DNA of 23,241 nucleotides from a virus, in IMG/VR virus record IMGVR_UViG_3300046005_001560, positions 1-23,241 of that record; one strand, 5' to 3'. Positions 13,492-23,241 of this stretch are shown one piece after another. A model generated the notes under the pieces. The model did not search any database. It saw only the letters and a program-made list of their open reading frames with translations, and was not told the DNA's origin. How positions within the stretch are numbered: the first letter of the stretch is position 1; each line of letters begins with the position of its first letter. Position numbers and translations under genes: made by a program.

Positions 13492-14331
13492 ACAATTTCC
13501 TTCTGTTGATAAATTCATTCGACCAGAATCTTTACTAGACGCTGAAACCTTTTTTACTAAACTTGATGTTAATTCCTCGAAGGTCGTGATTTTATCTACT
13601 AGACCTAAAGGAAGGGCTTCAAAGCCCAGCTGGGTTGAGCCATTTCCCCATATATCTGCCGTGTCCATAGACAAGCCTCTAAGTTGAGAAATGTTCGTTT
13701 TAAATTCCATGTAAAGTGTGTCAATCTTACTTTGGATTTCTGCTTTAGCTTCTGCAGATAATACCTCGTATGGAGAGCCCATTGCCTTCCGCGAGGTGCT
13801 GCGAATCACGGTTGCAGTGACCCCATCCTGTTCCATTCGACCCACATACTGCATCGAAATTGCTATGCAGCCAATGCTTCCGACTGTTGCAAGCCTTTCA
13901 GCATGAACAGTATCAGTTGAGCTTAATAACCAATACCCTGCTGAACACGCCTGGTTTTCTACAAACCCTGTGATGGGCTTATGCTCGCTTGAAATCTTCT
14001 GGATTAAAGCGGCTACAGAAGAAATTCCCATAGCCGAGCCGCCAGGAGAATCCACGTTAAGCAGGATTTGTTTAATCTCAGGATCTTGCGCGGCTGTAAT
14101 CAGGGTGTCCTTAATTACGTTATAGCCAATCACCCCAAACATGGCTGCGAAAGCTGGGGCTTCTGTTACAAGTGACCCTGAGATGGATATAACCCCCACC
14201 CCTTCATGTACAGATAAAAGACCATAGTCTGCGGGGTCAAAGTTACTCGCACTTGCCAGTTCAATCTTTGCAAGGTTTATTTCTACTTCGCGGTAGTTGT
14301 TTTCACTACCCAACCAAATCTCTGTGTTCAT
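12973..14331 (-). CDS. Head maturation protease (S49/ClpP-like) with scaffold C-terminus
   Basis: 452 residues. Residues ~40-255 are an S49/SppA-type serine peptidase: LNVDSPGGSAMG (91-102), catalytic Ser130 in ENQACSAGYW, and probable general-base Lys182 in STSRKAMGS. Residues ~281-452 are acidic, Pro/Glu-rich and coiled-coil-like, as in a scaffold. This matches the lambda C arrangement, in which the protease cleaves scaffold and itself during head maturation. The start overlaps the HNH gene stop (ATGA), so translation may be coupled. A second start inside the gene at 13491 would make the scaffold alone. Confidence 0.9.
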   Translation of the reverse strand: MNTEIWLGSENNYREVEINLAKIELASASNFDPADYGLLSVHEGVGVISISGSLVTEAPAFAAMFGVIGYNVIKDTLITAAQDPEIKQILLNVDSPGGSAMGISSVAALIQKISSEHKPITGFVENQACSAGYWLLSSTDTVHAERLATVGSIGCIAISMQYVGRMEQDGVTATVIRSTSRKAMGSPYEVLSAEAKAEIQSKIDTLYMEFKTNISQLRGLSMDTADIWGNGSTQLGFEALPLGLVDKITTFEELTSSLVKKVSASSKDSGRMNLSTEGNCMARKNVLSDKSAALLAAGVSLEAALDAEDEVIEQDVVEPEDVQDPEPEAPAPAPVEASDFFKAQLAESNEKMISLMLDNREMKSKLETIDVTHTQLRAIAADSINLRNVGLGRGRVDLATASDEVILSTYSNISKEFNNTFAVGSLTELASTEKEKVTMSAAQKRAVGATKI

Positions 14332-15350
14332 TCTTTTCCTTTATAAACTTCTGGCATCTTTGATCCTTTTCGTAAATTATCTTTAGCCCAAAGTGGCTGT
14401 AAATTTGTGTAATGGTTTAGTCTGATTACATCTTCTTCTGTTTTAGCTGAAGCTAAGGGTATTTTATGATCAATGTGCCATTCTGACCGATTTTCCCATG
14501 ACATCCCTTGTTGAAAACTGACCTCTAAATGCTGCATCAGCTCTTGATAACTACAACCAAGAATTTGTTCCGTACTGCTTCCCTTTGCGACCACGCTCCG
14601 TCTAAGAGCGTCATGTATGAAAGACCTAGTCTGGAGTTTAAACTTGAACAAGGGGTCACTCTCTTTGCGTTTCTTCCTGTATTCACTATCGTACTTTAGT
14701 CTTGCATCTTTAGTGGCTAGAACCCATTTCTTGCGAGTTTCCTCAGTCCGTTCTTTAGTGTTAGCCATGTAAGTTTTTCTACAGATTTTACATTCGCTGT
14801 TCACTCCCAGTGGTTTTGTCCTGTTCCGTTGGAAATTACTTAACAGTTGCTCGACGTTACATACAGTACAGAATTTATGCCCTTCTGCTGGTTTAGGTGT
14901 GATCTTATCCTTTTCTTTTCTAGCAGCATCTCTCTTAGCTTTTACTTTTTCGGATGAGCGGTCTCGGATGGTTTTTAGTTTTTCTGGGTTTTCTTGATAA
15001 TACTTCTTCTTTCTTTCTGCGATTTTTGAGGCACTATTCTTTGTATAATCCCGTTTTTCTGCAAGAATATCTTCTCGGTGTTCTGCGTAGTACTCTTTTC
15101 GCTGGGATTGAATGCGCTCTTTATTATCTTTGTTATACTGTTGACAGCAAGATACACACTTTGGTTGTCTACCGTCCCTATATTTCTTTGCTCTATAAAA
15201 CATAGCTTCAGGTTTAACTTCTTTACACGTTGTACAAACTTTTGTCATTTCAGATTCTCCAGAACCAAATCTACCAGAATAAAAAGATAGCACAGCAAGG
15301 TAATCTGGTTTACCTGTTCGGGTTGCATTCCCTAGCTGTACTGTGTTCAT
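14328..15350 (-). CDS. HNH endonuclease with two Cys4 zinc-binding repeats
   Basis: 340 residues from the first ATG. Two similar zinc-binding units (Cys39, 42, 65, 68 and Cys161, 164, 187, 190) flank a long Lys/Arg/Glu-rich helix. The C-terminal nuclease has WHIDHKIPLA (His292, Asp294, His295), Asn316 in HYTNLQPLW and Asn325. This is a free-standing HNH enzyme, probably a homing endonuclease inserted between the lysis cassette and the head protease. A better start may be ATG at 15248 (residue 35), just before the first Cys pair, with GGAG 8 bases upstream. The first 34 residues have no zinc-finger or nuclease features, and TATAAT overlaps the first start codon. The stop overlaps the protease start. 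Confidence 0.85.
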   Translation of the reverse strand: MNTVQLGNATRTGKPDYLAVLSFYSGRFGSGESEMTKVCTTCKEVKPEAMFYRAKKYRDGRQPKCVSCCQQYNKDNKERIQSQRKEYYAEHREDILAEKRDYTKNSASKIAERKKKYYQENPEKLKTIRDRSSEKVKAKRDAARKEKDKITPKPAEGHKFCTVCNVEQLLSNFQRNRTKPLGVNSECKICRKTYMANTKERTEETRKKWVLATKDARLKYDSEYRKKRKESDPLFKFKLQTRSFIHDALRRSVVAKGSSTEQILGCSYQELMQHLEVSFQQGMSWENRSEWHIDHKIPLASAKTEEDVIRLNHYTNLQPLWAKDNLRKGSKMPEVYKGKE

Positions 15351-20765: not shown

Positions 20766-20769
20766 AAGT

Positions 20770-20802
20770 GTAGGATTATACCCTACGTTTTAAGTATGTC
20801 AA
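20770..20802 (-). promoter_or_regulatory. Packaging operon promoter with operator-like inverted repeat
   Basis: The minus strand has TTGACA (20802-20797), a 16-base spacer and TATAAT (20780-20775), both consensus. An inverted repeat GTAGG / CCTAC with 7 bases between arms exactly brackets the -10 box and would suit a dimeric repressor or activator. The transcript should begin near 20768-20769, 3-4 bases before the ATG at 20765. Confidence 0.85.
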
Positions 20803-20869
20803 CCAACAAGCTAGAGTGTGGGTATAACCACTCAGGTTGTAAGGTTGAAAAGTGAGATTTGGAAAATTT

Positions 20870-20881
20870 TGTTGATCAACA
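20870..20881. promoter_or_regulatory. Palindrome TGTTGATCAACA in the divergent region
   Basis: A perfect 12-bp palindrome between the minus-strand packaging promoter and the plus-strand TATAAT near 20.93 kb. It could be an operator serving one or both directions. It is a single copy, so chance cannot be excluded. Confidence 0.4.
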
Positions 20882-20909
20882 TAATAATGCCTAACAACAG
20901 GTCAGTAGG

Positions 20910-20938
20910 TATATTGTATGCACCCGTAAAGCTATAAT
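20910..20938 (+). promoter_or_regulatory. Candidate promoter of the long noncoding region
   Basis: A perfect TATAAT lies at 20933-20938. The hexamer 17 bases upstream (TATATT) is a poor -35, so the promoter may be weak, activated, or used by a modified polymerase. The transcript would start near 20945 and enter a long gene-free, hairpin-rich region. Confidence 0.4.
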
Positions 20939-21067
20939 GATTACAAGTTAAACGAAACGGCAAGCAGAACAAGCCTTAGTCATTTTTCCCTTTGTCAAAA
21001 ATCGAGCAAAAGTTGCGACCTTATAAAATGGAAAGGCACGCATAAAATCTTTTTGGCAAGTCATAAA

Positions 21068-21079
21068 CGCTCTTTAAAA
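21068..21079 (+). promoter_or_regulatory. boxA-like antitermination element
   Basis: CGCTCTTTAAAA matches the bacterial rrn boxA (TGCTCTTTAACA) at 10 of 12 positions and is followed by ATTTGG. In rRNA operons boxA recruits NusB/S10 so that polymerase reads through long structured RNA. Here it lies ~125 bases after the candidate transcription start and ~85 bases before a terminator-like hairpin. Confidence 0.6.
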
Positions 21080-21163
21080 ATTTGGATAGCTACGCCCTGA
21101 ATCGTCCGCTGTGAAGCGTGATAAGCACGATGTTGTCAAGGCAAGCGAACAAGTACCGTCTTG

Positions 21164-21185
21164 AAAGTACCCTTTGGGGTACTTT
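21164..21185 (+). repeat. Punctuation hairpin, copy 1
   Basis: AAAGTACCC-TTTG-GGGTACTTT forms a perfect 9-bp stem, followed by GTAAAACGG with no long T run. It is one of five related hairpins in the plus-strand region and lies inside the candidate noncoding RNA. Confidence 0.8.
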
Positions 21186-21779
21186 GTAAAACGGGTTAAT
21201 CAAGTCACAGAATACTTGTCTTTGCATCAAACGCAGGCAATCTGAAAGTGCTAGGGTTGAACTGACTGAAAAACGGCTTTAATGGTAAGTTATGCGTAAC
21301 GAACCAGCTTTTAAGGCTTATAAAATCTGCTGGGTAATTAGTCGTCAGGACAGCCACGAGTACCTCTTTGAGAGAGCATGAATGCGTGGAATCGCCTAAT
21401 ACGGAATGGGTGGTAACAGTCACAAAGGTCAAGTAATGCCTAGAATATATTGAATAGGGCATAGAGTGGTGTATCGGATACGTCATAGAATAATGATTGA
21501 AATTTAGCGGGAGAGCTACGCCTATAGAATTAAACTTCGTGGGCGGGTTCGACAACAAACCGTTTTAAAGTAGATAAACATTTTGAAGGCTTGGTTATCG
21601 TGAGAGTGTGGAAGAGTGTGCCTGTTGATTTATCGCAGTAAAATTGAAAGTTCCCGCGTCAATGTTGTACGACTTTGGTAGAAGTACCAGTTAGGAATTA
21701 GTAAAGGTAAAAACCCACGATTTAGAATCACCCGACCTCGGTAGTAAGGCGGACTCTAATGCTCACAACTTCACTTTGG

Positions 21780-21801
21780 CAAGTCCCCCCTGGGGTACTT
21801 G
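21780..21801 (+). repeat. Punctuation hairpin, copy 2 (degenerate)
   Basis: CAAGT-CCCC pairs with GGGG-(T)-ACTTG, with one bulged T and a 3-base loop. It is related to the other AAGTACCC/GGGTACTT hairpins and marks the probable 3' end of the structured region before the AT-rich stretch at 21810-21840. Confidence 0.6.
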
Positions 21802-21843
21802 GTGACACTTAGTGATTATAGATTTTAAATTTTAAATTACGTT

Positions 21844-21897
21844 ATAACCTTGCTAGGAACAAGGTTATTGCGTCAAGCGTGCATTCCGTATGCTTGA
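21844..21897 (+). promoter_or_regulatory. Two leader hairpins before the 219-residue gene
   Basis: ATAACCTTG and CAAGGTTAT make a perfect 9-bp stem with loop CTAGGAA (21844-21868). Four bases later TCAAGC and GCTTGA make a 6-bp stem (21873-21897). No T run follows, so these look like 5' leader structures rather than a terminator. The preceding 21810-21840 is strongly AT-rich and may hold a promoter, but no clear -35/-10 pair is seen. Confidence 0.55.
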
Positions 21898-21924
21898 TTC
21901 AATAACTTTATTAAGGAATTTAAA

Positions 21925-22584
21925 ATGTCAACTCTAAATTTAACTAAAACATCTACAATCATCAAATTAGCTCAAGCTGTAAAATCTGAGTTTAACACTC
22001 ACAGCTTAGAGTCTGACGGCGTAGAGTTTAAACAAGTTACAGCAACAACCCAAAACATCGGCAACATTGTCAACGCCTCAATCATGGGCAACAGCGCGGG
22101 TATTGTTTTAGCCTCTTTTATTCGTGGTGCGTCAAAAGCTGACGTTAGCGAATACTTCAACTCGTTAGAAGCGCAAGCCTTAATTTTAGGCTTCGATGCT
22201 ACTTTTGTCAGTGACTGTTCAAAACGCTTTTTTCATGAAGTTTCAAAACAACGCGCAACTTTTGGCAAAGACTTAACATTTTTGCCTTTTGAAGACGCGG
22301 CTTCTTGCTTACAACGTGAAAAAGGAACAGCTTCAGGTATCAAATGGGGTGACTGGGTTGATAATAGCTGGGTAATGAAAGCAATCTATGCTTCAGCTAA
22401 ATCTGAAAAAGAAACCGAAACCGAAACCGCTCAAGGTGGTGAAGGTGAAGTGAATAAAACGCAAGAAGTCTCTATGGTTGATAGAGTGTTCAACGCGGCG
22501 GCAACTCTTGAAATCAACGATTTGATTGAATTACAAAATAGAATTAACGCTCTTGTATCAGAAAAACAATCTGCTACAGCGTAA
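21925..22584 (+). CDS. Unknown protein, first plus-strand gene
   Basis: 219 residues, ribosome binding site AAGGAA before ATG. Family not recognised. The first ~155 residues look like a globular alpha-rich domain, with Trp-rich IKWGDWVDNSWVMKAIYA at its end. A Glu/Thr linker follows (KETETETAQGGEGEVNK, ~162-178). The last ~35 residues (MVDRVFNAAATLEINDLIEL and on) form an amphipathic helix that could be an oligomerisation module. It is soluble, with no signal peptide or membrane segment. It opens the plus-strand region, which reads away from the late genes, so an early or replication-stage role is possible. Confidence 0.8.
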   Translation: MSTLNLTKTSTIIKLAQAVKSEFNTHSLESDGVEFKQVTATTQNIGNIVNASIMGNSAGIVLASFIRGASKADVSEYFNSLEAQALILGFDATFVSDCSKRFFHEVSKQRATFGKDLTFLPFEDAASCLQREKGTASGIKWGDWVDNSWVMKAIYASAKSEKETETETAQGGEGEVNKTQEVSMVDRVFNAAATLEINDLIELQNRINALVSEKQSATA

Positions 22585-22601
22585 GCGTAAGGATTAAAAC
22601 G

Positions 22602-22621
22602 AAGTACCCTTCGGGGTACTT
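22602..22621 (+). repeat. Punctuation hairpin, copy 3
   Basis: AAGTACCC-TTCG-GGGTACTT, an 8-bp stem with a UUCG-type loop, then TTGTGTTG. It lies 17 bases after the 219-residue gene and directly before the first hammerhead. It may act as a weak terminator or a 3'-end protector. Confidence 0.8.
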
Positions 22622-22623
22622 TG

Positions 22624-22679
22624 TGTTGTCTGCTGATTTAAACAGCACTGATGAGCCTTCAGTTCAAGGCGAAACAACA
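22624..22679 (+). ncRNA. Type III hammerhead self-cleaving ribozyme, copy A
   Basis: All core elements are present in order. Stem III 5' strand TGTTGT (22624-22629) is followed by cleavage base C at 22630. Stem I is TGCTG/CAGCA with loop ATTTAAA (22631-22647). Core CTGATGA is at 22648-22654. Stem II is GCCTT/AAGGC with loop CAGTTC (22655-22670). GAAA (22671-22674) and stem III 3' strand CAACA (22675-22679) complete it; the last A of GAAA pairs with T22629. Stem III is the open helix, hence type III. Predicted cleavage is between 22630 and 22631. It leaves a downstream 5'-hydroxyl mRNA starting 59 bases before the 43-residue gene. Confidence 0.92.
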
Positions 22680-22689
22680 GGAATTATTT

Positions 22690-22821
22690 ATGCAAGTAAA
22701 AACAGTTTATCCTTTCGAGTGGGCAGTAACTCGTAAAACATACTTCACAGGTTACATTTATCAAAATGATTTCCAAAGAAAACTAGGTCTTAGATTGCAA
22801 AATGGGGTTTTAGGACTTTGA
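22690..22821 (+). CDS. Very small protein downstream of hammerhead A
   Basis: 43 residues (MQVKTVYPFEWAVTRKTYF to LQNGVLGL), aromatic and basic, family not recognised. CAGGA lies 7 bases upstream of ATG, in the leader left after ribozyme cleavage. The frame is also open upstream through the 3' half of the ribozyme to an ATG inside its CTGATGA core (22651), but that start lacks a ribosome binding site. The conserved leader module shared with the next gene supports it as a real gene despite its size. Confidence 0.65.
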   Translation: MQVKTVYPFEWAVTRKTYFTGYIYQNDFQRKLGLRLQNGVLGL

Positions 22822-22827
22822 TTAAAT

Positions 22828-22849
22828 GAAGTACCCTTCGGGGTACTTC
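22828..22849 (+). repeat. Punctuation hairpin, copy 4
   Basis: GAAGTACCC-TTCG-GGGTACTTC, a perfect 9-bp stem. It begins 7 bases after the stop of the 43-residue gene and directly precedes hammerhead B. The only base that differs from copy A's module turns the closing G-T pair into G-C. Confidence 0.8.
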
Positions 22850-22850
22850 G

Positions 22851-22906
22851 TGTTGTCTGCTGATTTAAACAGCACTGATGAGCCTTCAGTTCAAGGCGAA
22901 ACAACA
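22851..22906 (+). ncRNA. Type III hammerhead self-cleaving ribozyme, copy B
   Basis: Identical to copy A across the whole ribozyme: stem III TGTTGT (22851-22856), cleavage C22857, stem I with loop (22858-22874), CTGATGA (22875-22881), stem II (22882-22897), GAAA (22898-22901), CAACA (22902-22906). Predicted cleavage is between 22857 and 22858, 59 bases before the 87-residue gene. Confidence 0.92.
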
Positions 22907-22916
22907 GGAATTATTT

Positions 22917-23180
22917 ATGCAAAAATTATCAGTAGTATATCAGCAGTATGAAGAGTTTTCAGCAACAGCGGCTGACGTAGTACAAGCCGCACTCGTGGAG
23001 GGGCATCCTATCATGGAAGCTCTAGCAATGGTCGGCGCAAAAGGTCTAAACGACCTGCACCTGATTGATACTGAAAGAGCTGTGGCTTTTCTTGGCTGGG
23101 ACACATACGCCCAATCTCACGAAATCATGTATCAGGAAAGATTCCCAGAAGCACCAGAAACAAAGTGTTACGTTTTATAA
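22917..23180 (+). CDS. Small acidic protein downstream of hammerhead B
   Basis: 87 residues, helical, Ala/Glu-rich (YEEFSATAADVVQAALVEGH, then DTERAVAFLGWDTYAQSHEI), soluble, family not recognised. The start at 22917 has CAGGA 7 bases upstream. An in-frame ATG at 22878 lies inside the hammerhead core and lacks a ribosome binding site, so the shorter form is preferred. The stop is followed directly by another punctuation hairpin. Confidence 0.8.
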   Translation: MQKLSVVYQQYEEFSATAADVVQAALVEGHPIMEALAMVGAKGLNDLHLIDTERAVAFLGWDTYAQSHEIMYQERFPEAPETKCYVL

Positions 23181-23198
23181 GTACCCCAAAGGGTACTT
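23179..23198 (+). repeat. Punctuation hairpin, copy 5
   Basis: AAGTACCC-CAAA-GGGTACTT, an 8-bp stem overlapping the stop codon of the 87-residue gene (TAA at 23178-23180), then TGTTGG. The loop sequence differs from the other copies while the stem is kept, as expected if the stem is what matters. Confidence 0.8.
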
Positions 23199-23241
23199 GT
23201 TGGTTCCACACAACAGGATTCCCTTTAAAGATACAAATGGG

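Follow-up and report, generated by a model that had tools for sequence, protein, structure and literature searches.

What might two copies of a hammerhead ribozyme motif do in the leaders of two small, neighbouring phage genes? We analysed a virus record of 23,241 bases, called the window below. It contains late-type phage genes; those for terminase, portal, protease and major head protein, which serve packaging and the head, are on its minus strand. The relatives of its terminase and portal are mostly distant phages, the top ones, at about 33% identity, coming from Pseudomonas and Vibrio phages. The features that concern us lie on the plus strand:

21925–22584, plus strand: upstream gene, 219 amino acids, no family above the cut-off
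22602–22621, plus strand: hairpin 1, AAGTACCC-TTCG-GGGTACTT, closed by a cUUCGg tetraloop and separated by 2 nt from hammerhead 1
22624–22679, plus strand: type III hammerhead 1, 56 nt, predicted cleavage at 22630/22631
22679–22683, plus strand: Shine-Dalgarno sequence AGGAA, its first base being the last base of stem III
22690–22821, plus strand: small gene 1, 43 amino acids, ATG at 22690
22829–22848, plus strand: hairpin 2, a second copy of hairpin 1, 2 nt before hammerhead 2
22851–22906, plus strand: type III hammerhead 2, predicted cleavage at 22857/22858
22917–23180, plus strand: small gene 2, 87 amino acids, ATG at 22917
22631–22857, plus strand: 227-nt RNA expected from the predicted double cleavage, containing gene 1

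The 219-residue gene has a sub-threshold match to Pfam PF10036 (E = 0.0024; 18.2 bits, with 24.6 required) and no PHROGs match. Small gene 1 has no Pfam or PHROG match, and small gene 2, which is unrelated to it, has no Pfam match and a single weak PHROG match (phrog_33588, E = 0.016). No plus-strand promoter-like site was found within window positions 21925–23241. Elsewhere in the window, a minus-strand gene at 14331–15350, flanked by portal-side genes and by the gene for the head protease, resembles Endonuclease VII/HNH proteins (phrog_1035, E = 3.4e-32) and is perhaps a free-standing homing nuclease.

Two copies of one hammerhead leader

Each leader is built in the order hairpin, 2 nt, hammerhead, AGGAA and ATG, and the start codon of the small gene lies 10 nt downstream of the ribozyme. 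In hammerhead 1, stem III pairs 22624–22629 with 22674–22679 (6 bp), stem I pairs 22631–22635 with 22643–22647 (5 bp) and stem II pairs 22655–22659 with 22666–22670 (5 bp), around a core made of C17 at 22630, CTGATGA at 22648–22654 and GAA at 22671–22673. CTGATGA, GAA plus A15.1, and C17 are all present in both copies, and in both of them stems I and II are closed by loops (AUUUAAA and CAGUUC, respectively) and stem III is open, which is the type III layout. Fast cleavage at cellular magnesium requires contacts between loops I and II. Hammerhead 2 is identical in every letter to hammerhead 1, at an offset of 227 nt; the 94-nt units that run from the hairpin through ATGCAA differ at one base, and the duplicated stretch around the leaders is 110 nt long and 94% identical. 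As both copies belong to that single duplicated stretch, they do not count as two separate pieces of evidence.

The original prediction had placed two complete hammerheads here, with cleavage at 22630/22631 and 22857/22858. Every conserved element could be read, both copies matched two covariance models, and the position of C17 gives the same predicted sites. It had also set each ribozyme just upstream of a ribosome-binding site and start codon, and AGGAA and ATG 22690 do follow the first copy, as ATG 22917 follows the second.

Two further readings of the leader were considered and dropped. For the hairpin of either leader no intrinsic terminator is called on the plus strand (hairpin 1 is called as one on the minus strand), and on the plus strand upstream of the hammerheads the hairpins have no terminator-like U-tract. 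The AUG within the ribozyme core is in frame and open in both window copies, but in the survey described below it is in frame about as often as the one-third that chance predicts (28 of 78 hammerheads among the matches listed, with 19 open).

Evidence that the motifs are hammerheads

Both copies hold up as complete type III hammerheads, and on their sequence self-cleavage is predicted. Searching Rfam at gathering thresholds listed nothing within the window. In E-value mode, RF00008 matched each copy at 40.5 bits (E = 3.2e-7 in 842 bases searched), below its cut-off of 48.5, with both matches spanning model positions 1–54 of 54. The hit to the Rfam type III model that had been anticipated was therefore borne out as a full-length match to each copy and failed as a listing at gathering thresholds. 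The copies resemble RF00008 in core, three helices, helix order and open stem III, and score below its cut-off. The cut-off appears too strict for viral hammerheads, since 24 of 26 other viral records matched RF00008 at E ≤ 0.001 and just one exceeded it; in another search, none of 12 records did so. A hammerhead of phage PaP3, known from the literature, reached only E = 0.018, which again indicates that RF00008 is a blunt instrument for variants.

We also used a covariance model from which the present phage was held out, built from 29 other phage hammerheads of the 88 available; its alignment, A3, is A2 minus L130 (wrong strand) and the near-duplicates L074 and L088. This model gave 52.1 bits and E = 1.6e-12 for each copy (35,898 bases searched). 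A pairing-based finder returned two matches in the window, compared with one in 200 dinucleotide shuffles (4.65 Mb, both strands) and none in a single mononucleotide shuffle of 1.09 Mb of loci. A loose regular expression requiring only CTGATGA..GAAA was not significant, as it found two matches and 9 of 100 shuffles reached two.

The predicted fold gives a similar picture. The minimum-energy structure of each 89-nt leader consists of the hairpin and the entire hammerhead (z = −2.87 and −3.88), and the upstream hairpin, right after which the original prediction had placed the 3′ end of the cleaved transcript, is borne out; the 56-nt ribozyme by itself is not unusually stable (z = −1.02). In an alignment of the 29 viral sequences, 98.4% of 448 cells were paired, 145 of them with changes on both sides, a level of pairing and covariation reached by none of 500 shuffles, although these rows had been preselected by a finder that demands pairing. 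The cleaner covariation figure, for that reason, comes from a pattern limited to the core and its immediate neighbours: all seven further pairs were present in 77 of 106 distinct viral matches listed, where chance would give about 0.1%. With the same pattern, 10 of 30 matches in cellular genome contigs had all seven pairs, so most cellular matches, unlike the viral ones, are due to chance.

A third, diverged hammerhead in this phage

Two other contigs extend the locus. Contig L004 is 99.88% identical to the window over 7,317 nt (9 mismatches), and the first 127 nt of L013, a 70,383-base record, equal window positions 23115–23241 exactly. Because L013 shares the terminal 127 nt of the window, the phage genome is likely divided between two records, with a total of about 93 kb. 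On L004 and L013, about 1.1 kb beyond the window pair and on the same strand, lies a third hammerhead that scores 52.4 bits with the held-out model. Its loops are altered and its stem I is altered yet paired, and every helix is kept. No Shine-Dalgarno sequence with a start codon was found within 60 nt of it; the closest candidate start, an ATG preceded by GGA, is at L004 8245, 121 nt away, and opens a gene with a weak match to a cell-wall hydrolase (E = 0.001, below the cut-off). No additional hammerhead was found in the 70-kb record.

Long tracts of little coding potential occur at window 20766–21924, which contains AGTACCC..GGGTACT hairpins at 21165–21188 and 21781–21804, and at L004 7300–8240, with a direct repeat around CATAGGGCATAGGATTAACTTAATCCTCC at L004 8120–8200.

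Outside this phage, the leader had no blastn match in named phages, and neither did two other leader regions. The named relatives, judged by terminase, share at most 33% identity. When the nearest ones were searched for a hammerhead, PMBT3 and Lana gave no match and SHOU24 gave one at E = 0.81, so the element is not conserved in these phages.

Viral hammerheads are mostly gene leaders

A scan of viral contigs, drawn from one collection, with this core pattern returned at least 119 stretches. The pattern fixes one base pair beside each side of the core as well as a GUC site, and is narrow enough that other hammerheads are left unsampled. The pairing finder recovered 88 distinct viral hammerheads among the matches listed, after removal of repeats sharing the ribozyme and 30 nt; three had too short a flank for the start-codon count, leaving 85. 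A start was counted if its open frame had 40 codons or more, or at least 25 where it ran up to the contig end.

Among the matches listed, 69 of 85 hammerheads had a Shine-Dalgarno sequence and start codon within 60 nt downstream on the same strand, at a median distance of 19 nt (range 7–46) from ribozyme to start; nine of the others had an ATG without a Shine-Dalgarno sequence, and seven had neither. The comparison figures at random positions were 14.4% and 18.5%, and on the opposite strand a Shine-Dalgarno sequence with a start was found in 2 of 87 listed matches. Related phages recur in the survey, and the 85 collapse into 37 similarity groups; with each group counted once, 28 of 37 contained a member led by a Shine-Dalgarno sequence and 32 a member with any start, again among the matches listed. 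Motif and fold, position and strand bias recur in unrelated phages, and most type III hammerheads in viral contigs serve as gene leaders, lying on the coding strand next to a ribosome site. The original proposal that self-cleavage would split a plus-strand transcript gains support here, as it fits the same-strand excess.

Viral hammerheads also frequently abut an upstream hairpin. In 34 of 88 listed matches, spread over 16 of the 37 groups, no more than 2 nt separated the ribozyme from the end of a hairpin of at least 5 bp, compared with a mean of 6.7 and a maximum of 9 hairpins adjoining the 5′ edge across 20 shuffles. A looser criterion gave a small excess (44 of 88 among the matches listed, versus 28 of 88 after shuffling and 27% for ordinary leaders). 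For 46 of 86 listed hammerheads, the end of a same-strand gene lay no more than 150 nt upstream, versus 30.7% of random positions.

Nine further neighbouring pairs or triples, no more than 3 kb apart, were present among the matches listed at eight viral loci besides the window; the loci with neighbouring hammerheads are L037, L045, L060, L068, L081, L107, L115 and L139, plus L049. The expectation that a tandem pair serving as gene leaders would be much less usual gives too little weight to what is known, in view of these nine sets and those described in portions of Perreault et al. 2011 (PMC3088659).

In cellular contigs, two assigned to Candidatus Magasanikbacteria MAGs (L161 and L164) carry three type III hammerheads each, in arrays spanning about 2.3 and 1.7 kb with a strong hairpin before every hammerhead, and other Patescibacteria contigs (L149, L150, L167 and L169) carry single ones. 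In bacteria with genomes as small as these, such arrays seem to merit separate study.

A proposed processing element between genes

We propose that each hammerhead is an intercistronic processing element that yields separate 5′-hydroxyl messages with defined ends, and we put the probability of this reading at roughly 0.7. The plus-strand transcript, if transcription runs through the element, would fold into hairpin and hammerhead while being made, and would cut itself in the cell after C22630 and C22857. Hammerhead cleavage leaves a 5′-hydroxyl and a 2′,3′-cyclic phosphate. By analogy, the upstream piece would end shortly after the hairpin with a cyclic phosphate, and the downstream piece would begin with a 5′-hydroxyl in stem I and then carry stem II, the Shine-Dalgarno sequence and the start codon in that order. 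Each small gene would in this way obtain its own message with defined ends, and the gain may lie in stability or in separation.

How much stability might be gained probably depends on the host. If the host relies on RNase E, the paired 5′ end should resist attack from the 5′ side; such shielding by stem I is extrapolated from known 5′-stem-loop effects, the subject of papers that PMC3997798 cites. This cap may fray, since the new 5′-terminal base is paired with a probability of 0.72 in copy 1 and 0.80 in copy 2, and among the matches listed only 2 of 69 leaders exceed 0.8. In the best fold of the copy-2 message, the 5′ end pairs with coding sequence and stem I is not closed. In hosts with RNase J, the ribozyme-made 5′-hydroxyl end of glmS hastens decay, according to parts of the same source (PMC3997798), which counts against stabilization there.

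We also considered whether cleavage unmasks the ribosome site as a general function, and rejected this. In the window, the unpaired probability of the site before and after the cut is 0.54 and 0.52 for one copy and 0.81 and 0.80 for the other. Across the 69 listed leaders the shift is small, with 0.502 before the cut and 0.557 after it, a rise in 20 leaders and a fall in 10 (p = 0.03), and the Shine-Dalgarno sequence overlaps stem III in 5 of 69 leaders among the matches listed.

Other readings of the pair are less probable than intercistronic processing. The leader cut might destroy or uncouple the message, keeping the small genes low, or might trim the upstream message; attack by RNase J1 on the 5′-hydroxyl left by glmS self-cleavage, as reported in passages of PMC3997798, shows how such down-regulation could work. 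In both copies here and in 69 of 85 listed hammerheads, though, the predicted cut falls upstream of an intact Shine-Dalgarno sequence and start codon, so a translatable message would remain, and no ligand-binding part was seen; we consider down-regulation unlikely. Less likely still, in our estimate, is that the 227-nt RNA is closed into a circular mRNA for the 43-residue protein, either through the reverse of cleavage or through a host RtcB-type ligase. As the two hammerhead copies are identical, the ends of this RNA are predicted to come together, and the predicted best fold of 22631–22857 does rebuild a hammerhead across both of them, the 3′ end pairing with the stem III strand near the 5′ end. 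Compatible stem III pairs also number six to seven in 4 of 9 neighbouring viral pairs among the matches listed, compared with at least five in 11.9% of random pairs. The other 5 of these 9, which come from related phages, have just three compatible pairs, so stem III compatibility does not seem to be a property that is kept, and in the window duplication by itself accounts for it. Excerpts of Perreault et al. (PMC3088659) moreover describe a search for circular or spliced products in which none was found.

The duplication before unrelated genes, together with the lack of a convincing match in the nearest named relatives, could also come from a passenger, that is, a remnant of a mobile element or a duplicated leader with no present use in the phage. 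We judge this highly improbable: pairing is kept across unrelated phages with a strong start and strand bias, and the third copy has diverged in sequence with its structure retained.

Reuse of the leader before unrelated genes

Beyond intercistronic processing, the combination of hairpin, hammerhead and Shine-Dalgarno sequence might constitute a portable gene start that phages copy, swapping unrelated accessory genes behind it. We offer this tentatively, and hold it to be doubtful, if clearly less so than the alternatives above. A single leader type fronts two unrelated genes in the present phage. Among the matches listed, 94 of 130 pairs of similar leaders carry non-homologous genes, the similarity being in part that of the shared ribozyme core, and one family of 13 leaders has nine gene groups behind it.

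Contigs of this 13-leader family are homologous to one another only as far as the start codon. One alignment of 96.4% identity over 4,753 nt ends 6 nt beyond the start codon, and another of 95.8% over 1,294 nt ends at the start codon, with a whole gene put in between. Such breaks occurred at 16 of 38 hammerhead-led starts with informative partners among the matches listed, versus 20 of 92 other starts, a modest excess (Fisher p = 0.03, relatedness uncorrected) to which two phage families contribute all 16. At one gene start (L067 compared with L074, +270), a whole gene seems to have been inserted between the Shine-Dalgarno sequence and the next gene; the Shine-Dalgarno stretch is repeated on either side, as with start-associated repeats acting as exchange points.

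Relation to known systems

Tandem phage hammerheads and the idea that they process mRNA were already published in 2011: portions of Perreault et al. (PMC3088659) describe many phage and prophage hammerheads, several of them flanking single genes, and propose processing into single-gene mRNAs. Three tandem sets were tested there in vitro, where tandem sets were seen to cut, as one also did in E. coli, and the hammerhead HHphage is followed 13 nt downstream by the start codon of a helicase (PMC3088659, in part). The present locus resembles those sets in having several same-strand hammerheads around a single phage gene; it differs from what the same portions describe in that the whole unit through ATGCAA is duplicated before two unrelated small genes (PMC3088659). 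Within the open-licence literature searched, this reuse of a start-associated unit before unrelated genes is the fresher part.

Three other systems invite comparison. Like glmS, the element is a self-cleaving RNA in a bacterial mRNA leader with a 5′-hydroxyl product (predicted here), whereas glmS has another fold, is driven by a ligand and lowers expression (excerpts of PMC3997798). Like the SAS/ESAS of Cluster K mycobacteriophages, it is a repeated element before the starts of genes from different families; those, as described in sections of PMC3203893, are 13-bp motifs, some with 17-bp inverted repeats, and not ribozymes. Retrozymes and other circular RNAs with hammerheads likewise have these in pairs from which an RNA of unit length could be released, but the unit here holds a protein gene in a DNA phage, with no sign of an RNA element.

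Passages of a 2017 review (PMC6155905) describe the roles of prokaryotic hammerheads as open. For phage hammerheads, our survey turns that open role into a testable statement, namely that they are mostly gene leaders, and the present phage is a compact case of it, with two identical leaders and one diverged copy. If the portable-start idea is true, any gene placed behind the unit would need no promoter to acquire a 5′ end of its own, made by self-cleavage.
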